Origin: Candidatus Adamsella avium
Lineage (GTDB): Bacteria > Cyanobacteriota > Vampirovibrionia > Gastranaerophilales > CAJFVJ01
Length of the DNA stretch: 64,000 nt
Direction: 5' to 3'
Assembly (NCBI GenBank): GCA_904420445.1
Contig: CAJFVJ010000001.1
Coordinates: forward strand, 705,266 to 769,265
Below, in pieces: positions 29,054 to 58,689 of this stretch (within the stretch, counting starts at the first letter, position 1; each line of letters begins with the position of its first letter). Position numbers and translations under genes: made by a program. Under the pieces are notes generated by a model that made no database searches, was not told the origin of the DNA, and worked only from the letters and a program-made list of their open reading frames with translations.

Positions 29054-29444
29054 GTTTTAAATAAGGACGTGCAGGAATTTCAACAGATTTATTCCGCCCT
29101 GACTGTCCGCCGAGTTGGTGTATTGCTGCGTATTCAAGGTTTGAACCTATAACTGCTGAATCGTTATCATAATAAGTATTAACAGAAGAAGCAAGCTGCC
29201 CTGTTACCTGCAAAATCATGCCGGGCCACTGTTTATTTTTAGTCCGCTGTTTTATTGTTGATTCAGATAATTCAGTCCATTTATCAGGTCTTCCCTCATT
29301 TTTAAAATTTTCTTCTGTTGAATATGCGAAAATCCCTGCGATGTTTTTCATTAACGGCCGCAGGTTTTCACTTCTTTGAGCCAAATCAAGGAGTCTTGAT
29401 TCGACTTCTTTGTTATCAATTTTTATTTCAATAGAGTCAGACAT
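28998..29444 (-). CDS. Mu gpG-like virion morphogenesis protein
   Basis: A 148-residue phage protein of the virion morphogenesis (Mu gpG) family: an N-terminal D-N-K-E-V segment, the central R-P-D-K-W-T-E-L-S-E-S-T-I-K and the C-terminal I-P-A-R-P-Y-L region are characteristic. Members act in head-tail joining or tail completion. It is the last gene of the minus-strand virion operon and overlaps the Dam-type gene by eight bases. Normally it follows gpF directly; here a methylase gene lies between them. Confidence 0.82.
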   Translation of the reverse strand: MSDSIEIKIDNKEVESRLLDLAQRSENLRPLMKNIAGIFAYSTEENFKNEGRPDKWTELSESTIKQRTKNKQWPGMILQVTGQLASSVNTYYDNDSAVIGSNLEYAAIHQLGGQSGRNKSVEIPARPYLKLTDEDFEEIIASTMNYLE

Positions 29445-30249
29445 TTTTAAATAATTCTTTTATAGGGTAATTAGCAATCAGCAGTTCTTTATATACCTTA
29501 TTCGCCCTGCTAGTACCCTCACGATTGTTAATTCCGTTCTGCCTTTCAACTTCAATCATCTCAAAGCCTTTGTATAATTCTCGGACTTTTGGAGAATCAT
29601 CGTATGAGAGCAGAAAACGCCCTTTGATGCTGCCTAAAACATTCCTTAAACGTTCGTGGTCAAAGTCTGTGGTAGATGTTACTTCATAACCGCAACCTGA
29701 AGTGTACGGCGGATCGCAATAGAAAAAAGCACCTTCAAAATCGTATTGTTTAATCAATTTTTCAAAGTCACGGTTTTCAACCATAACTTTATCAAGGCGT
29801 TTGTGGATTGCGTCAATTTTTTCTAAAACATTGCGTTGAGATTTCGATGCACCGCCTGAAGATTTTTTCACAGTTCCGAAAGTATCACCACGCCCTCCAA
29901 ATGAACGGGTGATTAAAAACAGAAACTGTGCTGCTTTTTGGATATCTGTAATAAAAGTTCCGTTCAAAAATTGGAAAAACATCTCACGTGAGCCTAAAAG
30001 ATACTGCAATTCTTCTTTTAAGGCATTCGGGTGGTATTTTACAATCCTGAAAAGATTAACCAATCTTCCGTCAAGGTCGTTGTATATCTCTAAATCAGCC
30101 CAACGGTCTTTATAAAACAAAACCCAACCGGCACCGCCGAATGGTTCAATGTATGATTGAATATCCGTAGGAACTAACGGTGCAATACGTTTGCGGAGTA
30201 ATCTTTTTCCGCCAACCCAGTTTAATAAACTTTTTTTATCAACTGTCAT
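29437..30249 (-). CDS. phage DNA adenine methyltransferase (D12 class)
   Basis: A 270-residue alpha-class N6-adenine methyltransferase. Motif X/I is N-W-V-G-G-K-R (10-16), the SAM motif E-P-F-G-G-A-G is at 34-40, and the catalytic D-P-P-Y is at 178-181. It resembles Dam-type orphan methylases of phages and should methylate the phage genome, protecting it from host restriction. It lies between the gpF-like and gpG-like genes. Confidence 0.9.
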   Translation of the reverse strand: MTVDKKSLLNWVGGKRLLRKRIAPLVPTDIQSYIEPFGGAGWVLFYKDRWADLEIYNDLDGRLVNLFRIVKYHPNALKEELQYLLGSREMFFQFLNGTFITDIQKAAQFLFLITRSFGGRGDTFGTVKKSSGGASKSQRNVLEKIDAIHKRLDKVMVENRDFEKLIKQYDFEGAFFYCDPPYTSGCGYEVTSTTDFDHERLRNVLGSIKGRFLLSYDDSPKVRELYKGFEMIEVERQNGINNREGTSRANKVYKELLIANYPIKELFKNV

Positions 30250-30282
30250 TCAAAACTCCTTTAATTATTATTCAAATAGCGT

Positions 30283-31041
30283 TCAAATATCGTTTAAACC
30301 CGATGCGGGATTATGAGACCACCCGACATCAGGTGCAATCTTTTTACCGGTAAGAGGGTCTGTATAAACAGTAACGGGCTTATACTCACCCGATTTTTTA
30401 GAAACTAATCTCATCTCTTGAGACAAAGTACCTGTGGAATTACCCGGCTTTGCATCTTTCTTTTTGAGGTTATAACCTGAAAGAGCGTTAACTCTGCAAC
30501 GGCATCTCCAACCGTTCGGTGGGTAAAAACTTGCCCAGAAAGGATCATCATATCTGTAAATTAAGCCATGAAGTTGTGCGTGTTCGGGTCTTGTTCTGTT
30601 ATCAAGGACAGCAACGTATTCCCAATACGGTCTATTGTCCACATTATCCATCTGAGTTTTATACCGTCCTGTCATATATGAAGTCTGCATATTAACGGCA
30701 TAGATGGTTTTTAATCGGTACATTGAACCAAGCTGAACTTTTTCTGCATTGCCTTGAGTATCAACAACAATCTGTTCTCCCCACCAACCTTTCTTTTGCA
30801 GGGTTGGTTTGAGTTCTTTTTGAAACTCTTTGAATGTTTTTCCCTCAGACAGAGCTTTATCCAAAGCAGAGCGAATATCTTTTAGAATATCCTCACGCAT
30901 AACTTTGGCAACTGTGAAAGTCTTTTTATGTGCATCTTGCCAGAGTTCGTACCAATCCCAAGTGAAAGTTTGACCTTTTCGCCTGAAATATTTTATGGCT
31001 GCTGCCGGAGCAAGTTTAAATAGACCTTTAAGTTCGATCAT
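30283..31041 (-). CDS. Mu gpF-like minor head protein
   Basis: A protein of 252 residues of the phage minor head (SPP1 gp7/Mu gpF) family. The signature region A-V-L-D-N-R-T-R-P-E-H-A-Q-L-H-G followed by P-P-N-G-W-R-C-R-C-R is complete. It probably helps initiate head assembly and DNA injection. The ATG at 31041 has AGAGGT upstream and overlaps the stop of the Dcm-type gene by 14 bases; a longer frame to 31158 lies wholly inside that gene and is not the real start. Confidence 0.86.
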   Translation of the reverse strand: MIELKGLFKLAPAAAIKYFRRKGQTFTWDWYELWQDAHKKTFTVAKVMREDILKDIRSALDKALSEGKTFKEFQKELKPTLQKKGWWGEQIVVDTQGNAEKVQLGSMYRLKTIYAVNMQTSYMTGRYKTQMDNVDNRPYWEYVAVLDNRTRPEHAQLHGLIYRYDDPFWASFYPPNGWRCRCRVNALSGYNLKKKDAKPGNSTGTLSQEMRLVSKKSGEYKPVTVYTDPLTGKKIAPDVGWSHNPASGLNDI

Positions 31042-32227
31042 TCTCGACCTCTGCCGCTTGGTTGCTCGCATTAAACGGGTCTGCGGTCTTGGACTTCTCC
31101 AAGCCCTCCGCCCTCTGCTCGCAATCCGCGATTTTTCTTGCAACAGCTTCAACAACATTTACGGTTACGGCATTGCCTGCCATCTTGTATAAACGACAAT
31201 CTGCCAATCCGATTTCACGAGCTTTCTCTATCATTTCATCAGGAAATCCCTGAAGTCTGAAACACTCAAGCGGAGTTAATCTTCTAATTCTGTATCCGTC
31301 AATAGTTCCCATATTGCAGTTTGTATCAAGAGTCTGAGAGCAGCCTTTACCAACTCTTCCACGTCTTGTTTTAGAATGAGGGAAAGCAAGATTTATTCCG
31401 TCTCCTGGGATTGCCTCATCGTAACCTTTTTTAGTACCGTTCCTCACACGCATTAAAGGAGTATCTCCTGCAACCAAAAGTGTTTGAACAGTATCAGAAG
31501 GACGATATTTGTCATAACGTACCCTGTTTACAAAATACAAACCTGTTTTAGCACCGAGTCCGCCGCCGTTTGCAGTAAGACAGGAACTTAAACCGTCCGG
31601 TAAATAAATTCTGTTGCCTTGAGGTGTCTTGGAACTTAATGGATGTTTATTGAGCGTGCTAATATTTTCGATTCCATCCGGGGTGAGAGGAAATATTTTG
31701 CCGGCACATCCTTTTCCATAACATCCAACAATGTACACTCTTTCCCTGTTTTGAGGAACTCCGAAGAACTTAGAATTAAGTAATTGCCATTGCACTTGAT
31801 ACCCAAGGTCGGTGAGAATTTTAAGTATTGTTTGGAAAGTTTTTCCACTGTCGTGATTAAGTAAGCCTTTAACGTTTTCGAGTATAAAATATCGGGGTCG
31901 CTTGTCTTTGAGAATCCGTGCGACTTCAAAAAACATTGTGCCTCTGGTGTCTTCAAAGCCGCGTCTTTTTCCTGCAATCGAGAAAGACTGGCAAGGAAAT
32001 CCTCCGCAGAGAATGTCGAAGTCGGGCAATTCTTCTGTATTGATTGTTCTGATGTCATTAAAAAATAACTCCTCTTCGGTATTAAAATATGCTTTGTATA
32101 ATTTGTTGGCATATTCGTCATTATCACAATAGCCGATACTTTTAAAACCCGCTCTTTCAAGTCCGATTCTGAAACCGCCTATACCGGAAAATAAATCCAA
32201 AAACGTTAATTGCTTATTCAAGACCAT
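31028..32227 (-). CDS. phage DNA cytosine-5 methyltransferase
   Basis: A 399-residue C5-cytosine methyltransferase: motif I D-L-F-S-G-I-G-G-F (11-19), motif IV G-F-P-C79-Q-S-F with the catalytic cysteine, motif VI E-N-V-K-G, motif VIII Q-N-R-E-R-V and the C-terminal G-N-A-V motif X. The target recognition region is about 200-330. The ATG at 32227 is preceded by GGGAGGAG and overlaps the portal stop by 14 bases; an upstream in-frame start is inside the portal gene. It most likely shields phage DNA from restriction. Confidence 0.92.
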   Translation of the reverse strand: MVLNKQLTFLDLFSGIGGFRIGLERAGFKSIGYCDNDEYANKLYKAYFNTEEELFFNDIRTINTEELPDFDILCGGFPCQSFSIAGKRRGFEDTRGTMFFEVARILKDKRPRYFILENVKGLLNHDSGKTFQTILKILTDLGYQVQWQLLNSKFFGVPQNRERVYIVGCYGKGCAGKIFPLTPDGIENISTLNKHPLSSKTPQGNRIYLPDGLSSCLTANGGGLGAKTGLYFVNRVRYDKYRPSDTVQTLLVAGDTPLMRVRNGTKKGYDEAIPGDGINLAFPHSKTRRGRVGKGCSQTLDTNCNMGTIDGYRIRRLTPLECFRLQGFPDEMIEKAREIGLADCRLYKMAGNAVTVNVVEAVARKIADCEQRAEGLEKSKTADPFNASNQAAEVENDRT

Positions 32228-33677
32228 CACTCCTCCCTTGCAGTTCACACAGGAAAAGTGCCTTTTGAAGAGATTGTTCAAACTTCTTTGAATGCAGGTT
32301 TTTATCCGTTAAAAGTTCATAAGCCTCATCGAAGTCATCACAATCCTCAAGCAGTGAAATTAAAGGTGAAAGCATCTGTTGAGCCTGTTCATTTAATTTT
32401 TTTGTTGAAATAAACTCAAGCAGATTTTCTATCTGGTCTTGTCCGGGAACGGACGGCTCGCTTTCCTTGAATTCCTTAAACTGAGAATTTGTTGCAGGGA
32501 TAACATCTTCCCTGATATCAAAATCCTCATCTTCAAGACCGTATGCTTTAATAAAATAATTTTTCGTAAATTTAACACCGGTATCGGAGAGAATTTTGTC
32601 TCTCTGTGCAAGAGTCAAATCAACATCTTCCGGTGCATATAACTGAAATATCGGGACTTCTTCATTAGAGAAATTAATTTCATAAATCCAACGAATAAGC
32701 TGGTTTATAACACTTTCAACGAGTTTTTTATCAGAATCAATAATATCCTGACGAACCGCCATGTGCGTATTTGCAGCCGCATAACTTCCTGTTGAACCGA
32801 TTTCGGTTGTAAGAGTTTGTCCTAAGATTGCTTTTGAAATTTCAGAATTCATCTTGTCGATGAGTTTTTCATAAATTTCGGCAGATGAAGATTTGTTTGC
32901 CTCTTGGATTTCTACAGACGAATCATCAGGAATAACAGCGATTGCATCTTGAACCATATCCTCAAGCATATCTGCGAGAGTCGTGGTTTCTTCTCTTGAT
33001 GCTCCACGTGGGTGTTTGCCTATCAAATGAGGCATTCCGTATTTTTCCGTAAATACTACCCAAAACTTGAGTCCGCCTTTTTTGAATGTAACAGACCAAA
33101 AGACACGAGATAACGTTCTCTCACCGTAAGGATTGTTATAAGATGGATTATTTTGAGCAAGCAGGAATTTTTTATCCGGAACAATTTCGCCGTAGTAATT
33201 TTCTTTAGTTCTAAATTTTAGATTATTGTCATCATCAAAACAAAACCATTCCGGCGGCTTTGCAATAATTTTTTCAGGCAGAACGTGTCCTGATTTGGTT
33301 TTCTTCCAGATAATCTCTAAAGGCTGATAACCAAACTGAGTTGCATCAAGAATATCATTTATTATTTTATGAATATCCAGTTTTTTAAGTAATTCTTCAA
33401 TCGCCTCAGCATTTTTGTCTTTATCCAAACCACGATTGATTTCCCAATCAAGAGATAAAACACCTGCTTTTCTTGATTGAGTGCAGGCAAAAACGTGCGG
33501 ATCACAAAGCAATTCCTTATAAATCCTAATATCCTTGCCCTGTTTTCTGAGAACAATATCAGGATCAGGGAGAATGTTTGCCAATGAATAAAAGTTTAAT
33601 GCTCGTTTTCGGGTCGCAATTTCTTCTGACAAACTTTTTTTAGAGTTTGCTTTTTTAAGAATAGAATCGTCTGTCAT
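32214..33677 (-). CDS. Mu gp29-like portal protein (DUF935)
   Basis: A 487-residue protein of the DUF935 family that forms the portal of Mu-like phages. It includes R-K-A-G-V-L-S-L-D-W (about 74-83), the conserved P-E-W-F-x-F-D region and I-L-G-Q-T-L-T-T (about 289-296). The portal ring is the channel for DNA packaging and joins head to tail. It begins on the last base of the tail tube gene. Its place after the tail tube gene, not next to the terminase, is unusual. Confidence 0.88.
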   Translation of the reverse strand: MTDDSILKKANSKKSLSEEIATRKRALNFYSLANILPDPDIVLRKQGKDIRIYKELLCDPHVFACTQSRKAGVLSLDWEINRGLDKDKNAEAIEELLKKLDIHKIINDILDATQFGYQPLEIIWKKTKSGHVLPEKIIAKPPEWFCFDDDNNLKFRTKENYYGEIVPDKKFLLAQNNPSYNNPYGERTLSRVFWSVTFKKGGLKFWVVFTEKYGMPHLIGKHPRGASREETTTLADMLEDMVQDAIAVIPDDSSVEIQEANKSSSAEIYEKLIDKMNSEISKAILGQTLTTEIGSTGSYAAANTHMAVRQDIIDSDKKLVESVINQLIRWIYEINFSNEEVPIFQLYAPEDVDLTLAQRDKILSDTGVKFTKNYFIKAYGLEDEDFDIREDVIPATNSQFKEFKESEPSVPGQDQIENLLEFISTKKLNEQAQQMLSPLISLLEDCDDFDEAYELLTDKNLHSKKFEQSLQKALFLCELQGRSDGLE

Positions 33678-34198
33678 TAAGCCCCCGTATTCTTTTTGAA
33701 TGTAGCGAGCATATCGACCATTCCGACCTTGTAGATGTTTTCAAGAACATCTATTTCAAAAATCTCGACTCCGTCAACGATTAATTTGGCATAGGTTACA
33801 GCCATAGTTGTTTCATATTCGGCATTTTCCTGCGGCTTAATATTACCGAGAGGGAATTCTTTGAAAGTTCCGATTAAAAAAGCAGTGGCAGGAACTTCCT
33901 TAATTCTTCCCGTTCCGTTGTAGGTTTCAAGGTTGGCTCTAACCTGTATCATTGTTGCTAAGAACGGATTAGAACATATAGCCATAACACTCGGATAAAG
34001 TGCATTCCACTTAATCTTGCATTCAAGTTTGTCGATCCCGGCAAAAAATTCAGCAGAACCAACCATACCAAGAGCCTTATGCTCTGCCATTTTATGCTTA
34101 ATCTGCGGAAGCTGAACTTCTTCAGCACGTCCGAGCAGGTTGATGCCGTTCATATAAACATTGGCATTGGTTAATTTATTAATCTCTATTTTCGACAT
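33677..34198 (-). CDS. P2 FII-like major tail tube protein
   Basis: A 173-residue protein of the P2 FII tail-tube family: N-A-N-V-Y-x-x-G near the start, then L-P-x-I-x-x-K, and a central G-S-A-E-F-F-A-G-I-D-K-L-E region. It should form the inner tube of a contractile tail together with the sheath protein at 34394-35626. The tail is P2-like while the head is Mu-like. Confidence 0.85.
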   Translation of the reverse strand: MSKIEINKLTNANVYMNGINLLGRAEEVQLPQIKHKMAEHKALGMVGSAEFFAGIDKLECKIKWNALYPSVMAICSNPFLATMIQVRANLETYNGTGRIKEVPATAFLIGTFKEFPLGNIKPQENAEYETTMAVTYAKLIVDGVEIFEIDVLENIYKVGMVDMLATFKKNTGA

Positions 34199-34213
34199 TA
34201 GTGTAAAAACTCC

Positions 34214-34393
34214 TTAAGACTTCTTGAAAAGACCGCAATCCCTAATCTCCACGTCTGAATAGTGCATAATGACATACTCCTTGCTGATGGCTTGGATTAA
34301 GGGACATTTGTAGATGTTTTTGCAGTTAAAGCAAATGTCCGCACAATCGGTGTGCACCTCTAAAACTCCTCTGTCGTTAACGATTGCGTACAT
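34214..34393 (-). CDS. 59-residue cysteine-rich small protein
   Basis: A short frame fills the gap between the sheath and tube genes. Its ATG (34393) directly follows the sheath TAA. The protein has a cluster C17-x3-C21-x2-C24-x5-C30 (D-C-A-D-I-C-F-N-C-K-N-I-Y-K-C), suited to metal binding, and one further Cys at 53. It lies where other phages carry small tail genes. I do not recognise the family. Confidence 0.6.
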   Translation of the reverse strand: MYAIVNDRGVLEVHTDCADICFNCKNIYKCPLIQAISKEYVIMHYSDVEIRDCGLFKKS

Positions 34394-35626
34394 TTATGAA
34401 CCGCCCAGAGATTTCAACAATTCAATATTGATGAACGATTCAAACGTAATTCTTTCAGCCGGAGTCGGAGGCATAAATTCGATGTCAAACGTTAAATGTC
34501 CGTTTGCGATTTCCGTTGCAGGGTTTTTATCCTGGTTGAATGTACATTTACCGTCAATCAATGCACCTCTGCCGATTAGAGTTCTAATAAACTGGTTCAC
34601 AGTTTCACAAATTGAATCAATCAAACCATTATCAATCGGATAGTCCATAAACTGGAGCATTGAATATTCAACCGATTCGTGAAGAATATCTGCGGTTCTT
34701 CTGACGTTAATAAAATTGGTCGGAGTTGTGGATGATGGATAAGCAGCAGAGCGGTTACCCCACGTCCTGAAACCTGAACCGTAAGAATTGAATACCGTTA
34801 CAACACCGCATTCATTCAAAGCGTTAACTTCAGATGTCGGGTCATTAATCATTGAAGTTAATTGCCGTTCAACTCCGACAATTCCTTGAATTTCAGTATT
34901 TGAAGGAGACCAATGGTAACCCTTCTCAACATCTTTTGACGCAATTACACCGGCTAACCTTTGAGAATACGGTTGTAATTTTATGGAATCAGAAGTTGCA
35001 TCATATACCTTTAAGTGCGGATAACAAAGAATTATACGCTCAGATGAAGTATTGAAATTGATTGTACCTTCAGGCCCACGACCTGAAATAACTTCTTGAA
35101 CAGAAGCACCGACAGGTGCATCAACAATACCCATCGCACGAATTTTATTACAGATAGTATTCATCTCGGTAACGACAGCCGTTTCCTCACAAAATACAGG
35201 TGCAATAATAGTTTTAGGATAATAGCCAAATAAGGAATAACAATCCTCAAAGGCTTTCATTCCGGTGCGTTTTCCTGTAAGTGCATCAACACTTCCGTTG
35301 ATTTCGCCGACTGTAACATCTGAAACATCTTCGTGTTTTTCAGGATCATAGACGTTTATAACAATCGCAATCCCGGCACCCTGATCGAATATTGCTTGCA
35401 GGGCTTGAGGAATAGTAAATCCGGCTTTATGATTGCCGAAATACCTTACAGCCTCAATCTCATTCATAATCAAAGTCGGGGTGTTGATTGTTTTGTACTC
35501 GTCTTCAACATCTTCAATCGGTGCAGTTCCGACAATTCCGACAACAGCAGTTTTTACTGTAGTAATTGTTCTTGCACCTTTTGTAATTTCTATGGTTTCA
35601 ACACCATGAAGAAAACTTGCAGGCAT
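34394..35626 (-). CDS. P2 FI-like contractile tail sheath protein
   Basis: A 410-residue phage tail sheath protein. The N-terminal H-G-V-E-T-I-E-I and the T-A-V-V-G-I-V-G-T-A segment are typical of the P2 FI/Mu L sheath family, as is the C-terminal D-I-E-F-M-P-P-T-P-A-E-R-I region. It forms the contractile outer sheath around the tail tube. It is followed by a small gene and then the tube. Confidence 0.9.
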   Translation of the reverse strand: MPASFLHGVETIEITKGARTITTVKTAVVGIVGTAPIEDVEDEYKTINTPTLIMNEIEAVRYFGNHKAGFTIPQALQAIFDQGAGIAIVINVYDPEKHEDVSDVTVGEINGSVDALTGKRTGMKAFEDCYSLFGYYPKTIIAPVFCEETAVVTEMNTICNKIRAMGIVDAPVGASVQEVISGRGPEGTINFNTSSERIILCYPHLKVYDATSDSIKLQPYSQRLAGVIASKDVEKGYHWSPSNTEIQGIVGVERQLTSMINDPTSEVNALNECGVVTVFNSYGSGFRTWGNRSAAYPSSTTPTNFINVRRTADILHESVEYSMLQFMDYPIDNGLIDSICETVNQFIRTLIGRGALIDGKCTFNQDKNPATEIANGHLTFDIEFMPPTPAERITFESFINIELLKSLGGS

Positions 35627-35652
35627 ATATATAAACTCCTTGGGGGTAAAAA

Positions 35653-36069
35653 TTAAATTTCTAAATCTTGTATATTTGTTGTGGTTAGTGTGAAATTAAC
35701 TCCGTATTGCCAGATACCGGCTTTTTCGGAGATGAAAAAATCTTTTGATGGACTTAATTTTGAGCAACCGTCAGGTGCAAAACCTGTAAGAACTGCTTTA
35801 ATTTTGTCAATATATTCGTATGCTCCCTCGTTTTTTCTGAGGTTTCGGGTTACAACAGTAATTGAAAATTCTTTTTTGTTTTCCTGAGAGATAAATCCGA
35901 GTGCATCTGTTGAAGTGTAGTTACTTCCCTGATAATGCACAAGCAAAGCACCGATTGGATGGAGTAAGATAAATTCCGCAGGCTTGTCGGGAAAACCTTG
36001 AACAAGGACTTCGGAGAATACTGTTTTTAATTTTCCAATTATTGCGTTTTCAATATCACGTATATTCAA
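35653..36069 (-). CDS. Mu gp37-like protein
   Basis: A 138-residue protein of the Gp37 family: an N-terminal I-E-N-A-I-I-G-K-L, a middle segment G-A-L-L-V-H-Y-Q-G-S-x-Y and a C-terminal W-Q-Y-G-V-N-F region. Relatives lie between head-completion and sheath genes in Mu-like phages and probably act at the head-tail joint. It starts with TTG, preceded by AGGAG. Upstream lies the unusual GC-rich element at 36081-36190. Confidence 0.78.
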   Translation of the reverse strand: MNIRDIENAIIGKLKTVFSEVLVQGFPDKPAEFILLHPIGALLVHYQGSNYTSTDALGFISQENKKEFSITVVTRNLRKNEGAYEYIDKIKAVLTGFAPDGCSKLSPSKDFFISEKAGIWQYGVNFTLTTTNIQDLEI

Positions 36070-36080
36070 TAAATAAAGCT

Positions 36081-36190
36081 CCTGTGGTACTCGGACTTAC
36101 GTCCTGCGTTCCTACGTCGCCATCGAACGGTTACGCCCTGCATCGTCTTTGCCTACGCAAAGCCGTTTCGGGCTTCACACACGGCTCACG
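36081..36190. repeat. GC-rich structured element between two virion genes
   Basis: This 110-base stretch is 59 percent G+C, far above the surrounding phage genes. It contains several hairpins: GGAC-TTAC-GTCC (36093-36104), CTTTGC-CTAC-GCAAAG (36147-36162) and AGCCGT (36161-36166) with ACGGCT (36181-36186). It has no open frame of note and is not a recognisable tRNA. It fills the gap between the gp36 and gp37-like genes. It may be an inserted repetitive palindromic element or a structured RNA that modulates operon expression. Confidence 0.55.
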
Positions 36191-36193
36191 CAT

Positions 36194-36637
36194 TTAATAT
36201 TCAAACATCCGCTCCTTGCTAAAGAGCCTGTCAATTATCGACTTATTTGTTTTGTATTCTTCAGCATTAAATCCTGCGGTTTCAAGGGAATCGTTTTCGC
36301 TTTGCAGGGAGATAACACCCTTTTGAATGTCTTTGAGAGTTGAGATTGCGTTTTTGTAGTTATTTTCAATAACTTCCGGCATTTCATCTCTCATACGTCT
36401 TGAATACAGGCGGTGAATACTTAAATCAATGGCAAGAATTCTGAGTAAAGGGAAATGGGCATCTAAGGGTAGAGTGTATCTGCCACGAAGATACCCATCG
36501 ATGAGCGTAGAAGAATAAAGGATAGCCTCTTGGGCAACGACACGATCGACAGCTTCTTGCCCATCATCAGAAGTGAGCTGGATAAGAGTAGGGGTAGAGG
36601 TTTGTGTTTCGATATCGTCAATCGTGCAATAATCCAT
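36194..36637 (-). CDS. Mu gp36-like protein (DUF1320)
   Basis: A 147-residue member of DUF1320 (Mu gp36 family): M-D-Y-C-T-I-D-D-I at the start, I-D-G-Y-L-R-G-R-Y-T-L-P-L in the middle and a helical C-terminus with S-I-H-R-L-Y. These proteins are thought to complete the connector below the portal. It ends next to the GC-rich element. Confidence 0.85.
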   Translation of the reverse strand: MDYCTIDDIETQTSTPTLIQLTSDDGQEAVDRVVAQEAILYSSTLIDGYLRGRYTLPLDAHFPLLRILAIDLSIHRLYSRRMRDEMPEVIENNYKNAISTLKDIQKGVISLQSENDSLETAGFNAEEYKTNKSIIDRLFSKERMFEY

Positions 36638-36639
36638 TT

Positions 36640-36978
36640 TTAACCTTTCAAAATTCTTATTTCCTGACCTGCGGTTCCGGCATCAAGGGCATAGCCGTTT
36701 GTAATGGCAGAGTCTGCGACCTTAACAGCTTTACCTTCTGCATCAGATGCAACGGCATCTCCGACAGCGATGGTTCCTGCGGCTTCAACAAGCAGAATTC
36801 CTAAAACCGCAACAGGTGCATATTCACCTTTAGCGGTTGAAACATCTGAAACTCCGAGAGCCTTAGCACCTGCGGCACAATAATTGCCGTCAAATCCGAT
36901 AAATCTGTGCTGTTCCAAATCCGCAGCAGCAAGAGTAGAATCAATTAACAGAGGTTTGTATGTTTTATTTGTTGTCAT
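36640..36978 (-). CDS. DUF2190-like capsid decoration protein
   Basis: A 112-residue protein rich in Ala and Gly with the pattern of DUF2190 proteins, which are small capsid decoration or cement proteins: V-L-G-I-L-L-V-E-A-A-G-T-I-A-V-G-D-A-V and a final G-Q-E-I-R-I-L. Such proteins follow the major capsid gene in Mu-like phages. The ATG at 36978 follows AAGGAGG at ideal spacing; an earlier in-frame start overlaps that site and is rejected. Confidence 0.75.
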   Translation of the reverse strand: MTTNKTYKPLLIDSTLAAADLEQHRFIGFDGNYCAAGAKALGVSDVSTAKGEYAPVAVLGILLVEAAGTIAVGDAVASDAEGKAVKVADSAITNGYALDAGTAGQEIRILKG

Positions 36979-37294
36979 CAGAACCTCCTTTTTCATCAGC
37001 TTTTGATTCTTCTTCCACAGTTACGGTTTGAGATTCAGTTTCGGTTTTTGTTTCTGCTTTTGTTTGATTTTTAGCAGAAGTTTTATTTTCAGACTTCTTG
37101 TTTCCTGTTGATGCAGTTTTTGAAGTCTGAGTCTGCACTTTAGATTTTGCAGGGGCTGACTGATTCGGCAGAAGTTCCACAAAATCTTCAAGACGTTTTG
37201 CTTGAGTGTCATCAAGTTCAATGGTTGAACCTTCTTTATACACAGTTTTATTGTGCATGATTGAGGTGTGTTTAACTTTGTACTTCAGAGCCAT
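36965..37294 (-). CDS. small virion operon protein with low-complexity tail
   Basis: A protein of 109 residues. The first 50 residues are a compact domain (K-Y-K-V-K-H, then V-Y-K-E-G-S-T-I-E-L-D-D, then A-K-R-L-E-D) like the small DUF7210-type proteins found beside phage capsid genes. The tail is low-complexity and rich in Lys, Thr, Ser and Glu. The 15 bases around its ATG (AAGGAGGTTCTGATG) are identical to those of the following gene. It overlaps the capsid gene by 23 bases. Confidence 0.65.
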   Translation of the reverse strand: MALKYKVKHTSIMHNKTVYKEGSTIELDDTQAKRLEDFVELLPNQSAPAKSKVQTQTSKTASTGNKKSENKTSAKNQTKAETKTETESQTVTVEEESKADEKGGSDDNK

Positions 37295-38252
37295 CAGAAC
37301 CTCCTTGTTCGCTATCATCTTCTTTTTTTGCTTCACCGTTTACTTTTGAAATTAAGTACCCGGCTTCAGCACCGACTAAAAACGGTGTGTAAATGTCGGT
37401 AGCCCTGATATACTTAACTTTGTTGCCCTCTTTTTGGTATTCATCAATTTGCAGGGCATCTTTTTTGCGGACAGTGTATCCGTAAGAGGGGTCGTATTCC
37501 GTTCTTGAATTGCCAAGATTTGGAACATATGCAAGCACAATATTATCCTGCCAGATTCTGACAAAATTTCCGTCTTTATCCGCAAAGATTGATTTTCCGA
37601 TGAAAATATTTTCAATCTCGAAAATTTCTTTTAATAAATTAATTGTTACTAATTTATTGAGATTGTCGGAAATCAAACCTTTAAGTTGTGGGTGTTTTTT
37701 GAGGGTTTTCCAAGCTGCTTGCCCTATAATCATAGTGTTCGGATCTTGAGCAATTTTAGAGGAAACCGCATCTTTGGCATCATCGATTACACCCTGCGGA
37801 TCAGAATTCTCATCGGTAAAACAAGATGTGCCGGACAATAAAATTTTGTTGCCGGTAGGATATTTGTTAGCATCTTGAGCCAAATCAGCACACTGTTTTT
37901 CAAGTTTCAGCTTCAAACCTTCCGTTACAACATTTGTTGCGTGAAGTTGTAATTTAACTTTTTCCGCTTCCTGTTCTTCACGATAATCAATCGGGTATGA
38001 CAAATCGTGTTCGGCGAGGGTAGTTGTATGTTTTTTGAAACCTTGCGGCGAGATAACATTTGAATTCGCCCTGATAGCACGTTCGGTATCGTAAAGATTG
38101 AACGCTTCCTTGTTGAATTCAAAAATGTCAATTTTTTCTTTCTCAGAAGTAATTTCAGGGAACAGATGCTGAGCCACAAAGGCATTATTACTGTATCCGC
38201 GGGCGACCTCTGAGAGATACGCATTTATGCGTAATTCTTCCAATCTTCCCAT
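37272..38252 (-). CDS. major capsid protein
   Basis: A 326-residue protein placed directly after the protease/scaffold gene and with the features of HK97-fold major capsid proteins of the E type: an N-terminal R-G-Y-S-N-N-A-F-V-A-Q-H-L-F-P segment, the central T-M-I-I-G-Q-A-A-W-K region and R-I-W-Q-D-N-I-V-L-A-Y near residue 231. The acidic C-terminal tail (E-D-D-S-E-Q-G-G) is unusual. It should build the icosahedral head. Confidence 0.85.
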   Translation of the reverse strand: MGRLEELRINAYLSEVARGYSNNAFVAQHLFPEITSEKEKIDIFEFNKEAFNLYDTERAIRANSNVISPQGFKKHTTTLAEHDLSYPIDYREEQEAEKVKLQLHATNVVTEGLKLKLEKQCADLAQDANKYPTGNKILLSGTSCFTDENSDPQGVIDDAKDAVSSKIAQDPNTMIIGQAAWKTLKKHPQLKGLISDNLNKLVTINLLKEIFEIENIFIGKSIFADKDGNFVRIWQDNIVLAYVPNLGNSRTEYDPSYGYTVRKKDALQIDEYQKEGNKVKYIRATDIYTPFLVGAEAGYLISKVNGEAKKEDDSEQGGSDGSEVQS

Positions 38253-38284
38253 TTAAACTCCTTTTATATCAATGTTTCGGGGTA

Positions 38285-39265
38285 TTACTTATTTAATTTG
38301 AGCAGTGCATCTTTAAATGAGATGTTTTCTTTTGTTGCAAGAGCCTTAGCCTCTTTGAAAATCTCAACGCTTTCCTCATCTGCGTTTGCAAATTTTTCCA
38401 CATCTTCATTTGTTTGGTCTGTTTGCTTTTCTTTAGTGGCAAACTCACCGTATTTTATTTGATTCGGCAAGGTTTCAATAAAAGATTTGAAGTCGAGAAC
38501 GACTGTTGAATCCTCGCCGAATTTTTTGACATTATCTAACTCCTGAAGAACGGATAAGACAATATTTTTGTTTGCAGGGACTAACGTTCCTTTTTCAATT
38601 TGTTTGTCGATGAATTCTTCAAATTCTTTTTTCTTCAAAGAAGTTTTAATGTCATTCAATTCTTTTTCGATTTCTTCCTTACCCTGAGCTTTTTCTTTAA
38701 AAGTTGCGACTTCATCGGATAAGGCAGAAATTTTTTCTTTTAAAGATTTGATTGTTTCAAGTTTTTTGTTTGATTCTTTGAATGTTGCAAGCTGCTTTTC
38801 AAGGTCTGTAATCTGATTTTTTAAATCTTCAATCTCTTGTTCCGAAAAATTTTCAGTCTCATCATCTGATTCGAATTCGTAAGTGTCAGATTCTGCCTCC
38901 ATAAATTTAATTGCTTCTAAGCCCTTAACTTGTGGCATTGCAGCACCTAAGAATGAAACAGCTTTAAGGTATGCACCTTTACCATCTAAGTTTCTGTACA
39001 ACTCTACAGATACTTTTTTGTATTTCCCATCATTGACAGCTTGCTCAAATTCTTTTGGAACTTCTTTAAAACTTACTTTAAGTTTTTCTCCGTCTGCTTT
39101 TACATCATCAACCCAACCATATGCCGGTCCGGATTGTTGATGGTCGATAGTAATTGGAGCTTCACAGAATGTTGGGTCATAATTTTTCGCAATTTGTGCG
39201 ATTTCTTTTTTTGTGAACTTTCCTTGAGGATAAGTTCCTGCTTTAAAAACTTCAAAATACTTCAT
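38285..39265 (-). CDS. Mu gpI-like head protease and scaffold
   Basis: A 326-residue protein of the Mu I protease/scaffold family. The N-terminal part holds the protease-like domain (A-P-I-T-I-D-H43, then G-W-V-D-D, then V-S-V-E-L), and residues about 140-235 form a long coiled coil that acts as scaffold. The protein should template capsid assembly and then cleave itself and the capsid protein. It is the first gene of the minus-strand virion operon, read from the divergent promoter region at 39266-39529. Confidence 0.86.
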   Translation of the reverse strand: MKYFEVFKAGTYPQGKFTKKEIAQIAKNYDPTFCEAPITIDHQQSGPAYGWVDDVKADGEKLKVSFKEVPKEFEQAVNDGKYKKVSVELYRNLDGKGAYLKAVSFLGAAMPQVKGLEAIKFMEAESDTYEFESDDETENFSEQEIEDLKNQITDLEKQLATFKESNKKLETIKSLKEKISALSDEVATFKEKAQGKEEIEKELNDIKTSLKKKEFEEFIDKQIEKGTLVPANKNIVLSVLQELDNVKKFGEDSTVVLDFKSFIETLPNQIKYGEFATKEKQTDQTNEDVEKFANADEESVEIFKEAKALATKENISFKDALLKLNK

Positions 39266-39529
39266 TTAAAAAACCTTTTTCTTTTGTATGACAACTTTAA
39301 AAATTGCCCTATACGAAATTCATATATTCACAGTCTAACCCTTGTGCGATATGGGTTTCAAAAGATATGTGCAAAAATTTTTTCTTTGCACAGTTCAATG
39401 AATAAAAACTTGTATATATCTTTTGAAAAGCAGTCATAGAAAGATTTAGACTGCTATATATAAGCAAAAAAGAAGGACACGCAGTCCTTTCTTTCGTTTC
39501 TTCTTTCTAATCAATAAATAAGGAGTTAT
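39266..39529. promoter_or_regulatory. divergent late-promoter region with mirror-image elements
   Basis: These 264 bases separate the two virion operons. Two inverted repeats share one centre at 39392: TTTCAAAAGATAT (39356-39368) with ATATCTTTTGAAA (39416-39428), and CAGTCTAA (39331-39338) with TTAGACTG (39446-39453). Both directions therefore read ATATCTTTTGAAA, 17 bases, TTAGACTG, then an ATATAT-type -10 box (39454-39463 on plus, 39321-39328 on minus). A further dyad TGTGCAAA/TTTGCACA lies at 39368-39392. The layout suggests two copies of one activator-dependent late promoter, probably served by the Mor-like protein at 58287. A hairpin (AAGGAC/GTCCTT, 39473-39489) follows in the plus leader. 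Confidence 0.6.
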
Positions 39530-39775
39530 ATGGACTTTATTAATCAAATTTTACCTTTATGTGAAAGTATCGGTTTCCCTGCGTTGGTTTTTGCTATTTG
39601 GTATATTTACCATCAATCGCAAGTTAAGGCTTTTGAGTTAATAATTCAAGATAATTTTGAAATCTTAAAAGATTTACTTGAAACCAACCAATATCACGCA
39701 GCACTTCTTTCAAGAATTGAAAGTAAAATCGACAACAATCTATGGTGTCCGATTTTAAAAAAGGAGGTTTCATAA
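39530..39775 (+). CDS. small phage membrane protein, holin-like
   Basis: An 81-residue protein with one N-terminal membrane helix (about 9-27) and a charged, helical cytoplasmic part. The arrangement resembles BhlA/UviB-like holins, although its place next to the terminase rather than the endolysin is not decisive. A strong AAGGAG site precedes the ATG. It is the first gene of the plus-strand virion operon. Confidence 0.55.
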   Translation: MDFINQILPLCESIGFPALVFAIWYIYHQSQVKAFELIIQDNFEILKDLLETNQYHAALLSRIESKIDNNLWCPILKKEVS

Positions 39776-40018
39776 ATGAATCCCGAAATTTTACAAATGA
39801 AAGGAATGCTCGCTGAAGCAAAAAAGAAATACCGTTCTCTTGACACAGAGGCATCAGGACTTGTTATTCTTATTCGCTCACTTTTAAATCCGTATGAAGA
39901 AATACAAAAACTTGATATGGATAAAGTACTTGTGTCTGTAAAAAGACTTAAAAGTGTAACTGTTGAAATGCAAGCTCTGAATGACAAAATTAAAAGATTG
40001 GAGTCAGAACTTGAATAA
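39776..40018 (+). CDS. small coiled-coil phage protein
   Basis: An 80-residue, entirely helical protein with heptad-like leucines in the second half (about 45-80). It begins immediately after the previous stop and sits before the terminase small subunit, where Mu-like phages carry several small conserved proteins. No membrane segment. Function unknown. Confidence 0.65.
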   Translation: MNPEILQMKGMLAEAKKKYRSLDTEASGLVILIRSLLNPYEEIQKLDMDKVLVSVKRLKSVTVEMQALNDKIKRLESELE

Positions 40019-40463
40019 TAACAATAGCAAAAGAGAAGAGTTACTTCCTGAAGCCGAAAGACTTTTTATTTATGAATATATGCCTGCAACAACAATCGCA
40101 AGAAAATTAAACCTAAACAGAAAAACGGTTAATACTTGGCGTGCAGAGCAAGAATGGGATAAAAAACGTGGTGCATTTTTAAAATCGAAGATGTCTTTTC
40201 ATAATGAAATGTATGAATTTGCACGCAAACTAATGTCAGGGATAATTTCAGATATGGAAGCAGGAGAAAAAATCGATCCCGGAAGAATGTACACCTTTTG
40301 TAAGATTATCCCAATGTTTACAAAAGTCAAAAATTATGAAGACCTTGTTGCTAAAAAAGAAGAAAAAGCAACACCAAAAGGCTTAACACCTGAGCTTATT
40401 GCACAGATTGAAGAAGAAATATTGGGAATTACTCATAATGACGACATCAATGAAACAAAATAA
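40011..40463 (+). CDS. Mu gp27-like terminase small subunit
   Basis: A protein of about 150 residues with an N-terminal helix-turn-helix: A-T-T-I-A-R-K-L-N-L-N-R-K-T-V-N-T-W, followed by E-W-D-K-K-R-G. This matches DNA-binding small terminase or DUF1804-type proteins that recognise phage DNA for packaging. A TTG at 40011 with GGAG upstream is a likely start; an ATG at 39981 inside the previous gene is the alternative. The stop overlaps the terminase large start. Confidence 0.75.
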   Translation: MNNNNSKREELLPEAERLFIYEYMPATTIARKLNLNRKTVNTWRAEQEWDKKRGAFLKSKMSFHNEMYEFARKLMSGIISDMEAGEKIDPGRMYTFCKIIPMFTKVKNYEDLVAKKEEKATPKGLTPELIAQIEEEILGITHNDDINETK

Positions 40464-41799
40464 AACTCCATTTTTTCTACCGTATCAGATACGGTGGCTA
40501 AATGATAAATCAAAAGTAAAAATATGGGAGAAATCCCGAAGAATAGGAGCAACTTATGTACAAAGTTATGAAGATGTAAGAGATTGTGTAAAAAGAACAA
40601 TTCCTGCTGTTTGGTTTTCATCAGCTGATGAGTCTGCTGCCAGAGAATATATTGATTATTGTAAGCAATGGGCAACTTTATTCAATATTGCAGCAAAAGA
40701 CTTAGGCGAACAGATTCTTGATTCGGATAAGGATATAAAAGCATATGTTATAGCATTTTCAAATGGCACTAAAATTCATGCACTATCTTCAAACCCTAAA
40801 GGATTCAGAAGTAAAGGCGGAAAAGTTGTACTTGATGAATTTGCTTTCCATAACAATCCTGAAGAGTTATGGAAAGCGGCACGACCTTGTATTACTTGGG
40901 GTTATCCTTTAAGAATCCTTTCTACACACAACGGTCAAAGCTGTTTGTATTATAAATTCTTGGATCAGGTTCAAAAAGGTAAACTAAAATGGGCTCATCA
41001 TAAAACACCAATACAACTTGCAGTTGAAGAAGGTCTGATTGATAAAATTTATGGCAGACCAACTACACCTGAAGAACGTGAAGAATGGCTGAATGAAGAA
41101 CGCAAAAACTGTTTTGATGAATACACTTGGTTGCAGGAGTATTGCTGCGTTGCAATAGACGAAGCCTGTGCGTTTCTTCCTTATGATTTAATCTCTACCT
41201 GTGAGATGCCGGATGTTTTAAAATCTCTTGATGAGATAAAGGGCGATTTGTATGTTGGAATCGATATCGGAAGAAGAAAAGACTTAACAGTAATATGGTG
41301 CTTAGAACGATTTGAGAATTCCAAATATACACGAAAAGTTAAAGTTCTTGAAAAAACTCCATTTCACATTCAATACGAAATTATCTCGGAAATTCTTAAA
41401 CATCCAAAATTAAGACGTTGTTGCATTGACTCAACAGGCTTAGGTATGCAGATAGCTGAAACAGCACAAAGAGACTTCGGACAATATCGAGTAGAAGCAG
41501 TTATGTTCACAAATAAATCAAAAGAGGAAATGGCATACAACCTAAGAACCAATTTTGAAAGTAAAACTGTATTTATTCCACAAGAACATGAAATAAGAGA
41601 AGACTTGCACTCAATAAGAAGAATTGCAACTAAGGCAGGAAATATAAGGTTTGATGCAGAAAGCTCAGAAGTAAACGGACACGCTGACCGATTTTGGGCT
41701 TTAGCACTCGCTCTAATAGCTTGTAGCGTACCTTATAGTCCGGTAGAAATTACAACAAGAAAAAGATATGAAACACTAAAACTCACAGAAGCCTTTTAA
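40438..41799 (+). CDS. Mu gp28-like terminase large subunit
   Basis: A protein of 453 residues that packages DNA into the head. The ATPase part has a Walker A-like W-E-K-S-R-R-I-G-A-T near residue 29, and Walker B V-V-L-D-E-F-A-F-H near 129-137. The nuclease part shows V-G-I-D-I-G-R-R-K-D-L-T (about 263-274) and C-I-D-S-T-G-L-G-M. I place the start at the ATG at 40438; an earlier frame start (40399) lies inside the small subunit gene. Confidence 0.88.
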   Translation: MTTSMKQNKTPFFLPYQIRWLNDKSKVKIWEKSRRIGATYVQSYEDVRDCVKRTIPAVWFSSADESAAREYIDYCKQWATLFNIAAKDLGEQILDSDKDIKAYVIAFSNGTKIHALSSNPKGFRSKGGKVVLDEFAFHNNPEELWKAARPCITWGYPLRILSTHNGQSCLYYKFLDQVQKGKLKWAHHKTPIQLAVEEGLIDKIYGRPTTPEEREEWLNEERKNCFDEYTWLQEYCCVAIDEACAFLPYDLISTCEMPDVLKSLDEIKGDLYVGIDIGRRKDLTVIWCLERFENSKYTRKVKVLEKTPFHIQYEIISEILKHPKLRRCCIDSTGLGMQIAETAQRDFGQYRVEAVMFTNKSKEEMAYNLRTNFESKTVFIPQEHEIREDLHSIRRIATKAGNIRFDAESSEVNGHADRFWALALALIACSVPYSPVEITTRKRYETLKLTEAF

Positions 41800-42270: not shown

Positions 42271-42413
42271 TTCATTTATGCAAGATAACGGGATGGCAGT
42301 ATTCCGAACTTTGCGAAATGTCCATCCCTACCCTTGCATACTGGTGCAATCAAGCAATTAAGTACACGAACAATCGCAATGAGGAACTTGAAGAACAATG
42401 CTCGACACAATGA
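42267..42413 (+). other. -1 frame extension of the tail chaperone (E+E' type)
   Basis: The -1 frame relative to the chaperone gene is open across its stop and encodes about 48 residues including I-T-G-W-Q-Y-S-E-L-C-E-M and L-A-Y-W-C-N-Q-A, ending at TGA 42411-42413. This matches the second part of phage tail chaperones, which is made as a fusion by programmed frameshifting; P2 E+E' is a known -1 case. I could not identify a perfect slippery heptamer. The frame overlaps the tape measure start by 16 bases. Confidence 0.65.
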
Positions 42414-44848
42414 TGAAAGTATCATTAACTCTTGTAGCCTTTGATAAAATGTCAAAGGTTATAAAAGATGCTGTTCGCAAGTCCAACGATGAGTTTGCAA
42501 AGTTGCAGGATGAAATCAAAGATACATCTGAAATGTTAGATAAACTCGGTCAGAATATGACTAAATTAGGTGCAGGATTAACTGCTATCGGTGGTGGTCT
42601 TGCATATAAATTAGGGATAACAGAAGCAATTCCCGAAGCCTTTCAGATGGAGCACAGATTAAGAGAACTCGGCAATGTTGGACAATTATCCGCAAAACAA
42701 TTAGAAGATATGGATAAACGTCTTGCTTCCATTTCAAGATACACAAACCAAATGCGACCTGAAATCGCAGAAGGTTTGAACGTTCTAGTTGCATCAGGTA
42801 TTGACCCGCAAAAAGCCCTTGATTATATGAACGTAATAGGAAGAACTGCTACAGGTGAACAGGCAGCCATTGAAGATATTTCAAGAACAGCTTTTGCTGT
42901 AAGCGATAACTTAAAAGTTCCTATTAATGATTTAGGAAAGTCAATGGACATCCTTGCAATGTCAGGTAAGGAAGGACGATTTGAATTAAAGGATATGGCA
43001 GCAGCATTTCCAAGTTTAACCGCTGGTGCTGCTATGCTCGGAATGAAAGGCACACCTGCCGTTGCTTCTTTAGGTGCTGCGTTGCAGGTTGCTATGAAAG
43101 GTGCCGGAGAAGCTTCCGAAGCTGCCAATAACTTAGAAAACTTTATTCAAAAAGTTACATCTCCACTTGCTGTTAAAAACTTTGAAGAAGTATTTGGAGT
43201 TAATTTAAAACAGGTTCTTTTGGATGCAGCAGCTCAAGGGCGTGATCCTATTCTTGAAGTTATAGAAATGATGACACAACTCTCAGGAGGAGATGTTTTC
43301 AAAGTATCAGAAGTATTCCAAGACAAGCAGGTATTAAATTTTATTAAACCTATGATGCAAAATCTTGACGAATATAAAAGGATTAAAGCATCTGCTCTAA
43401 GTGCTGAAGGTGTTGTTGATTCTGACTTTGAGAATATGATGCAAACTACAAACGAACAGTTTAAACTGCTCAAAATCAATATGAAAGAGCTTGTATTCCC
43501 TCATCTACACGAACCGATTCAAAAAATTAATGAATTACTCACTAAAATAAACAACAATCCACTACTTCAAAAAGGCTTATTTGGTGCAATTATAGGGACA
43601 ATCGGATTAGGAATACTTCTCACAACCCTCGGTACTGCTACGATAATTATAGGAAAATTTGTTGGAATGTACGGCAAATTTTTAGGATATGCTCGTGATT
43701 TAACACCTGTTCTTACTAAAAATGCAGTTCTGTTGTTACAAAATGCAGGATTAACAAGCACCTCTCACTCTCTTGATACAGCATTTAACGTCTTTAAATC
43801 GGGAAATAAACTTGGTTTAAATCTTCCGAAACATACTTTATTGGGCTTCGGTGCGGATATAAGGCGAATTGATAATGAGATGAGAAAAGGTCTAATAAGA
43901 ACTTTCACTGAACTGCCTGCAAATATTTCAAAGTCAGCTATATCACTAAAGGATTGGACAGTTACATCATTAAAAGCACTGCCGACAAATTTTATAAGCG
44001 GTTTAAAGGCGTTCAAAACAGGTTTTCTGTCCATTCCGGGCATGATAAAAAATGCAATTGTTGCTTTTAGAGCTTTCTCTGTAACGCTTCTCACTTCTCC
44101 ATTAGGTTGGATTGCCTTAGCAATTGGTGTTGTTGCTCTTGTAATTTACAAATACTGGAAACCAATTTCAGCTTTCTTTAAAGGTATGTGGCAAGGATTA
44201 AAAGAAGGTTTACAACCGTTAATGCCATTATTCCAAAGAATCGGTAAGGCTATCTCTCCTATACTTGCACCTATCAAAGCAATTGTTGAGTGGTTCAAAA
44301 AACTTATAAAACCTGTTGATGATACAGGTGGAGCCGCAGAAAAAATGGGCGTTCGTTTTGGAAAAGCGATTGCAAATATAATCGTTAAATTAGTTGAACT
44401 TGTAACTAAAGCATTTGAATTTGGCAGTAAAATCACGACTATGCTTGCAAGCGGAATAATGTCAGGACTCGCAAAAGTAAAAGGTTGTATTGCAAAAGTT
44501 GCCCAAGTTATAAGAGACCACCTGCCACATTCACCTGCTAAAACAGGACCTTTAAAAGATTTGCACAAAGTAAAAATTATCGAGACTATTGCATCAACAT
44601 TAAAACCGTTGCCACTTCAAAATGCGATGAACAAGACGTTGGGAGTCTTTTCAGGGGGATTAAAAGCCCACACAAGAGGAGTGAATAAATCAGCTTCTCC
44701 ATCATTTGTCATTACCTACAACCCAACAATCACAATATCAGGAAGTGAATCTAAGGATGAGTTTCTGAAAATGCTTAAAAAACATAAAGATGAAGTTGTG
44801 AACATCATTAAAAGAGAATTTGAACGCAAGGAAAGGGTAGCTTACTAA
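42398..44848 (+). CDS. tail tape measure protein
   Basis: An 816-residue tape measure protein of the TP901-like family that sets tail length. An N-terminal helical and coiled part is followed by the conserved region with R-E-L-G-N-V-G and R-Y-T-N-Q-M-R-P-E-I-A-E-G-L-N-V-L-V-A-S-G (about 90-135). Hydrophobic segments lie near 395-430 and 560-590. The C-terminal H-L-P-H-S-P-A-K-T-G-P-L is typical. The start at 42398 lies inside the chaperone extension frame. Confidence 0.88.
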   Translation: MLDTMMKVSLTLVAFDKMSKVIKDAVRKSNDEFAKLQDEIKDTSEMLDKLGQNMTKLGAGLTAIGGGLAYKLGITEAIPEAFQMEHRLRELGNVGQLSAKQLEDMDKRLASISRYTNQMRPEIAEGLNVLVASGIDPQKALDYMNVIGRTATGEQAAIEDISRTAFAVSDNLKVPINDLGKSMDILAMSGKEGRFELKDMAAAFPSLTAGAAMLGMKGTPAVASLGAALQVAMKGAGEASEAANNLENFIQKVTSPLAVKNFEEVFGVNLKQVLLDAAAQGRDPILEVIEMMTQLSGGDVFKVSEVFQDKQVLNFIKPMMQNLDEYKRIKASALSAEGVVDSDFENMMQTTNEQFKLLKINMKELVFPHLHEPIQKINELLTKINNNPLLQKGLFGAIIGTIGLGILLTTLGTATIIIGKFVGMYGKFLGYARDLTPVLTKNAVLLLQNAGLTSTSHSLDTAFNVFKSGNKLGLNLPKHTLLGFGADIRRIDNEMRKGLIRTFTELPANISKSAISLKDWTVTSLKALPTNFISGLKAFKTGFLSIPGMIKNAIVAFRAFSVTLLTSPLGWIALAIGVVALVIYKYWKPISAFFKGMWQGLKEGLQPLMPLFQRIGKAISPILAPIKAIVEWFKKLIKPVDDTGGAAEKMGVRFGKAIANIIVKLVELVTKAFEFGSKITTMLASGIMSGLAKVKGCIAKVAQVIRDHLPHSPAKTGPLKDLHKVKIIETIASTLKPLPLQNAMNKTLGVFSGGLKAHTRGVNKSASPSFVITYNPTITISGSESKDEFLKMLKKHKDEVVNIIKREFERKERVAY

Positions 44849-58286: not shown

Positions 58287-58640
58287 TTAGCTTTTGCTTT
58301 TAGGATGTGACTTATTTGGGAGGTGGTTTTGAATTATTTTATAAATATATCTTTGGGAAAACTCACATTCTAATGCTAATCGATTAATCGTATATTTCCT
58401 GCCATCATACTGACTTATTATGTACCTCTTTTTAACCTCTGTAAAAGCATTTTTTGGAATCGTAACAGTTAATCCTGGAGTTAGAAAAATTAAAGCCAAA
58501 GCTGAACGTATGCCAGCTGATTCAGCAATTGTCTTTAAATCATCATTTGGCATATCTTCAGATTTTATATAATCCATCCAAGGCTTATATTCCATAATCT
58601 CCTCATTCTTATTACGTTTGGTCTCATCAGTTAGAGCCAT
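58287..58640 (-). CDS. Mor-like transcription activator
   Basis: A 117-residue protein of the Mor/C family: the dimerisation region I-A-E-S-A-G-I-R-S-A-L-A-L and the C-terminal helix-turn-helix Y-T-I-N-R-L-A-L-E-C-E-F-S-Q-R-Y-I-Y-K-I. In Mu these proteins turn on middle and late genes. Here it probably acts on the two mirror-image promoters at 39321-39463. A second ATG at 58595, preceded by GAGGAG, may be the true start; the first ATG (58640) has a hairpin instead of a ribosome site. Confidence 0.8.
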   Translation of the reverse strand: MALTDETKRNKNEEIMEYKPWMDYIKSEDMPNDDLKTIAESAGIRSALALIFLTPGLTVTIPKNAFTEVKKRYIISQYDGRKYTINRLALECEFSQRYIYKIIQNHLPNKSHPKSKS

Positions 58641-58647
58641 ACTCTAA

Positions 58648-58677
58648 GACGGTCAGCTTGCACCGTTAGCCGACCGT
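58648..58677 (-). promoter_or_regulatory. GC-rich hairpin before the Mor-like gene
   Basis: A stem of eight pairs with one mismatch (ACGGTC-A-GC, 58649-58657, against GC-C-GACCGT, 58669-58677) and an 11-base loop sits in the 49-base gap upstream of the Mor-like gene, between two A+T-rich genes. It could pause transcription or control translation of the activator. Confidence 0.4.
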
Positions 58678-58689
58678 TTCGACCTGTAA

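Follow-up and report, generated by a model that had tools for sequence, protein, structure and literature searches.

The window, a 64,000-nucleotide stretch of DNA from Candidatus Adamsella avium, contains a Mu-like prophage with the gene content of a transposable phage. Its early genes lie on the minus strand at 62.4-58.3 kb and encode a Mu-type transposase, a target ATPase, a GemA-like protein and a Mor-like protein, in the same order as in phage Mu. The virion block is split, with the genes for portal, protease, capsid and sheath running leftward (28998-39265, minus strand) and those for terminase and tape measure running rightward (39530 onward, plus strand). The gap between the minus-strand I protease gene, which starts at 39265, and the plus-strand genes, which begin at 39530, contains a mirror-symmetric unit of 143 bases (39321-39463). 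The features of the locus are listed in Table 1.

Table 1. Genes, candidate promoter elements and RNA features of the prophage, with positions in the window.
Feature	Position	Strand	Basis
Portal, leftward operon	32214-33677	-	PF06074, 2.9e-106
Sheath, leftward operon	34394-35626	-	PF04984, 1.8e-25
Capsid, leftward operon	37272-38252	-	PF03864, 1.5e-10
Mu-like I (protease), first gene of leftward operon	38285..39265	-	PF10123, 7.7e-8
-10 TAGACT, leftward promoter; predicted start ~39325	39332..39337	-	Alignment of relatives, exact-word search
-35 TTGAAA, leftward (head/sheath/portal) late promoter	39356..39361	-	Alignment of relatives, exact-word search
Leftward operator, -52 to -37	39362..39377	-	Alignment of relatives; left/right identity
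A-tract (UP-like), -57 to -54, leftward promoter	39379..39382	-	A in 21-23/24 representatives at each position
Axis of mirror symmetry	39392..39392	.	Repeat finder, symmetry count
Position of A-rich UP-like tract, -57 to -54, rightward promoter	39402..39405	+	A enriched in relatives; Mu Pm UP subsite (PMC4390567)
Rightward operator, -52 to -37, candidate site of a Mor-type dimer	39407..39422	+	Closer to its own mirror operator than to those of other phages; dyad covariation centre -43
-35 TTGAAA, rightward (terminase/tail) late promoter	39423..39428	+	TTG in 24/24 representatives on this strand; spacer 18 in 73/80 half-sites
-10 TAGACT, rightward promoter; predicted start ~39459	39447..39452	+	Aligns with TATAGT/TATACT/TAAACT/TATCTT of relatives
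Leader stem-loop and U-rich tail, start of rightward transcript, terminator- or attenuator-like	39470..39501	+	GAAGGAC-ACGCA-GTCCTTT-CTTTCGTTT
p81, p80, terminase small and large subunits, first rightward genes	39530..41799	+	
Tape measure, rightward operon	42398-44848	+	
Mor/C-family activator gene, proposed regulator of both promoters	58287..58595	-	phrog_836, PF08765 family, PDB/Foldseek ranks
Type II hammerhead candidate, directly upstream of mor	58620-58684	-	Stem II GGTC/GACC, stem III 10 bp, stem I 7 bp, cleavage GTC

Two inverted repeats within the unit share a single centre at 39392, as a sequence-only reading of this DNA had stated. A repeat finder recovered one pair of arms at 39356-39391 and 39393-39428, which are 78% complementary, and a second pair at 39331-39343 and 39441-39453. 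The plus strand carries ATATCTTTTGAAA (39416-39428), 17 bases and TTAGACTG (39446-39453), and the minus strand carries ATATCTTTTGAAA (39368-39356), 17 bases and TTAGACTG (39338-39331); both box pairs are symmetric about the common centre, and the boxes lie where that reading had located them in each direction. Perfect runs of at least 8 about this one centre comprise 21 symmetric bases, compared with a maximum of 17 in 5000 first-order Markov shuffles of the 143 bases (p ~2e-4). Searched with zero mismatches, the word TTGAAA-N18-TAGACT occurs within the 64-kb window only at the two mirror sites and in four copies in the 2.1-Mb genome, the other two being located on another contig. The genome also contains four further copies of ATATCTTTTGAAA, all of them outside the prophage.

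Relatives of the prophage were collected by terL and portal searches, which returned 26 and 23 IMG/VR loci, respectively, and found 47/382 genomes of the class positive. In a profile search of GTDB contigs, the hosts proved to be Candidatus Gastranaerophilales (gut Melainabacteria) together with some members of more distant phyla. Intergenic regions were obtained from 44 distinct relatives and then from 23 more, giving 67, of which 40 were retained after clustering at 80%; one of the 44 (L020), in which the minus-side half is deleted, was excluded from the statistics. In these 40 sequence-distinct relatives each half takes the form TTGAAA-N18-TAtanT, with a spacer between -35 and -10 of 18 bases in 73/80 half-sites and of 17 in the remainder. 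TTG is present in all 48 half-sites of the first 24 representatives, and the -10 column reads TATAGT, TATACT, TAAACT, TAGACT or TATCTT on both strands. Because of this conserved architecture ATATCTTTTGAAA is assigned to the operator plus the -35 element, the latter being its last six bases, and TTAGACTG to the -10 element; positions are numbered here with the -10 hexamer set to -12 to -7. Judged by sequence, the unit thus defined appears to be a bidirectional late-promoter unit with two near-consensus sigma70 promoters facing away from a common axis.

A search for the boxes in relatives, which the sequence-only reading had named as a check, found the promoter pair in every relative of the Gastranaerophilales clade with an intact intergenic region, and its central proposal of mirror-image divergent promoters for both virion operons is thereby sustained. 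The two-sided promoter score reaches at least 32 in 35/40 regions vs 0/2000 shuffles and at least 30 in 37/40 regions vs 11/2000 shuffles, and the unit of the window itself scores 34.2. The arrangement with the I protease leftward and p81 to terL rightward is kept well below 60% terL identity. Most of the distant relatives (terL <66%) lack a significant promoter pair, and the claim of conservation is therefore limited to the Gastranaerophilales clade. Suggestive pairs with other operators were seen in six of these distant relatives (L171, L236, L196, L206, L230 and L247), Mu-like phages of other phyla that may carry mirror-type pairs at the same divergent junction. The promoter region of the window has no match in any isolated phage record.

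The 16-bp operator lies directly upstream of the -35 element, and its sequence differs strongly among phages. Within one phage, the left and right operators share an identity of 0.60, compared with 0.36 between phages (p 5e-5), while hardly any such within-phage match is found in the -30 to -15 spacer (0.33 vs 0.29) or in the start region (0.42 vs 0.37). The distance from -35 to -35 in the intergenic regions of relatives is trimodal, with classes of 36-40, 49-53 and 59-64 bp and none between, and each class by itself shows the within-phage match of the operators (0.52 vs 0.37, 0.68 vs 0.33 and 0.68 vs 0.39). Covariation of dyad complementarity within a half peaks at a centre of -43.0 (z 4.7), followed by -43.5 (z 2.4); these operator z and p values derive from permutation tests that ignore relatedness and are indicative. 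Averaging the dyad signal across the 24 initial phages was dropped in favour of such per-pair tests, as the average was dominated by composition and by TTGAAA. The dyad is clearest in L083 (CTTGC-TGTC-GCAAG) and in L056 and L012 (ATGACATTGTCAT) and is imperfect in the phage of the window. A third half-site near -63 was considered for the wide-spacing class, in which several centres have similar z values. Further upstream, AAAA at -57 to -54 is near-invariant on minus-side promoters and weaker on the plus side among the 24 representatives.

In phage Mu, a Mor dimer occupies 16 bp of the middle promoter Pm with its centre at -43.5, and -57 to -52 form the UP subsite for the alpha-CTD (PMC4390567). 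The covariation centre of -43 agrees with the earlier suggestion of an activator box at the distance expected for a Mor/C-type protein, a suggestion that stands for the operator. The wider operator TTGYAYATATCTTTTGAAA has an exact match in the window only at the mirror unit, and an exact-word search for more regulon members detected no operator or promoter words elsewhere in the prophage; the mirror unit therefore probably represents the whole late regulon of the phage.

The Mor-like gene has a conserved start at 58595, although its longest open reading frame extends from 58640, and its product matches phrog_836, a late transcriptional activator, with 8e-11. By sequence profile the gene belongs to the Mor/C transcription activator family (PF08765), which is matched by 15/19 homologues (best 7.4e-7), the protein of the window scoring 8.1e-5 and 23.0 bits, just below the cut-off of 24.9. 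In a profile search against the PDB the top match is Mu C (9l0x; E 0.27, not significant alone). An AlphaFold2 model (pLDDT 86) retrieved Mu C and Mor chains as the top five Foldseek hits, which are weak (E 0.26-1.5, TM ~0.4). A Mor-like gene is present in 29/37 of the terL-positive genomes or records, and no other gene of the Mor/C late-activator family, including a separate C gene, was found in the prophage beyond 58287-58595.

Similarity among the Mor-like proteins correlates with similarity among the operators (Mantel r 0.33, p 0.001), and falls to a non-significant partial r of 0.13 (p 0.11) after removal of terL relatedness. Similarity of the Mor-like proteins also tracks the spacer, which is not part of the operator (partial r 0.25, p 0.006). 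Being confounded with phylogeny, the Mantel correlation was set aside as proof of recognition. Since co-divergence is not separable from phylogeny, binding of the Mor-like protein to these operators is an inference, as are its dimerisation and the silence of the promoters in its absence.

The reading that we favour, and consider probable, is that of two mirror-image promoters with one Mor-type dimer per side, served by a single Mor/C-type activator without a C step. The activator would be made from the early operon, in which its gene follows those for transposase, target-ATPase and gemA, and a Mor-type dimer would then settle on each 16-bp operator, centred near -43, and contact the sigma70/alpha-CTD face of RNA polymerase. 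The head operon would thereby be fired leftward and the terminase/tail operon rightward simultaneously, so that the cascade would pass from early to late in one step. This one-step cascade is suggested because searches revealed no C gene of its own and because the mirror unit divides the virion genes into two operons. Points against the favoured reading are the near-consensus -35, which is unusual in a Mor-dependent promoter and would allow basal activity or a repressor, the co-divergence that loses significance after terL correction, the imperfect dyad in the phage of the window, and PDB and fold matches to Mu C and Mor that are not significant by themselves.

In a less likely alternative, the mirror promoters are real and the control is exerted by a lysogeny repressor, by a host regulator or only by supercoiling or copy number, the operators being sites for a repressor or host factor. 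With -35 and -10 elements so close to consensus RNA polymerase may need no help, and the inseparability of Mor-operator co-divergence from phylogeny also suits this account. It is opposed by the placement of the operator upstream of the -35 element at the Mor position and by a UP-like tract resembling that of Mu Pm. Furthermore, the operator differs from phage to phage, which points to a factor encoded by the phage and not by the host, and the sole gene of a late-activator family found here is Mor-like.

More speculatively, and to our minds rather improbably, the mirror pair might be a single bidirectional machine. Dimers on the facing operators, and on extra half-sites between them, would form a shared complex that fires both operons; concerted evolution would preserve the likeness of the two operators even as the entire recognition sequence drifts among phages, and the distances of 36-40, 49-53 and 59-64 bp would correspond to 0, 1 or 2 such half-sites.

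Two further accounts appear very improbable. The first is the literal layout of the sequence-only reading, with ATATCTTTTGAAA as an activator box, TTAGACTG as a second box and the A+T-rich run downstream as the -10. The boxes and distances are as given, and on the plus strand TATATATA follows a short way downstream, but the TTAGACTG column of the relatives reads TATAGT/TATACT/TAAACT exactly 18 bp after TTGAAA, which identifies TTAGACTG as the -10 hexamer TAGACT rather than an extra box, and the A+T-rich run beyond it shows no conservation of a -10 element. The second, that the inverted repeat is mainly a feature of DNA structure or packaging (cruciform, gyrase site or pac site) with incidental promoter-like words, draws on long imperfect palindromes across the axis in several relatives and is contradicted by conservation that centres on the -35, -10 and operator and by the variable spacing between the halves.

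The favoured Mor-type reading can be compared with several known phages. In agreement with Mu Pm, the unit combines a Mor-family activator gene with a dyad operator at approximately -43 (covariation peak -43.0), an A-rich UP-like patch and a sigma70 -10. In contrast to Pm, which has no -35, it carries a conserved TTGAAA -35 element, with TTG in every half-site of the representatives. Measured against the Pm type, the operator centre near -43.5 and the UP subsite are thus found and the absence of a -35 is not; owing to the conserved -35, the unit, which would work as Pm does, is classed as a variant rather than a member of the Mor-dependent Pm type. Furthermore, Pm is a single promoter that serves the middle operon, whereas here two copies lie back to back and would drive the late operons directly. 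Like the Mu late promoters, which depend on the activator C (cryo-EM structures 9l0x and 9vw8), they are proposed to serve late operons with a Mor/C-type activator, and among solved structures Mu C comes closest to the Mor-like protein in sequence and in fold, though not significantly. Mu makes C from a separate gene in the middle phase, unlike the prophage, which yielded a single Mor/C-type gene and in which the structural operons run apart from a common point. The nearest isolated phages by terminase are Pseudomonas phage B3 and Leptolyngbya phage Lsp-JY19 (~40-42% identity), both of which share transposable-phage gene content with the prophage; their terminase, protease and capsid genes, and in B3 also the portal gene, run in one direction without a divergent centre.

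If correct, the favoured reading would describe a variant of Mor-type promoter control distinct from the three-step cascade of Mu, in which one activator and one back-to-back promoter unit serve head and tail genes, and would provide a concrete and testable late-gene switch for the Mu-like phages of the gut, a large family without cultured members. In addition, an operator that drifts among phages while its mirror copy follows offers a data set for DNA recognition by Mor/C proteins.

Two putative RNA elements were also noted. A leader hairpin with a U-rich tail occurs in 11/24 right leaders and 1/24 left leaders, where 0.05 and 0.1 are expected, and the rightward hairpin might serve for attenuation or stabilise the leader. 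Directly upstream of mor, a hammerhead candidate has the RF02276 core (CUGANGA / GAAA), closed stems I and III, an open stem II and a NUH cleavage site; when 181 bp were searched against Rfam it scored 22.7 bits (E 0.011), under the gathering score of 37. In the loci collected, a structural rule identified ~40 distinct copies, almost all of which lie just upstream of mor, and it identified none in 1.5 Mb of shuffled sequence. Compensatory changes affect all three stems, with stem II reading GGTC/GACC, GATC/GATC or AGTC/GACT, and covarying hammerheads occupy the same place in most relatives (e.g. L088, L090, L097, L105, L107 and L112). The ribozyme could separate the mor mRNA from the early transcript. 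Self-cleaving ribozymes have been associated with genes of Mu-like phages (PMC10085705), and the hammerhead described here is therefore an addition to a known pattern. In L090, two hammerheads lie ~350 nt apart (1101-1157 and 1454-1518), as is likewise the case in L089, L102, L103, L104 and L256; such pairs flank a small gene that immediately precedes mor, and the RNA of this small gene would be cut out on both sides.
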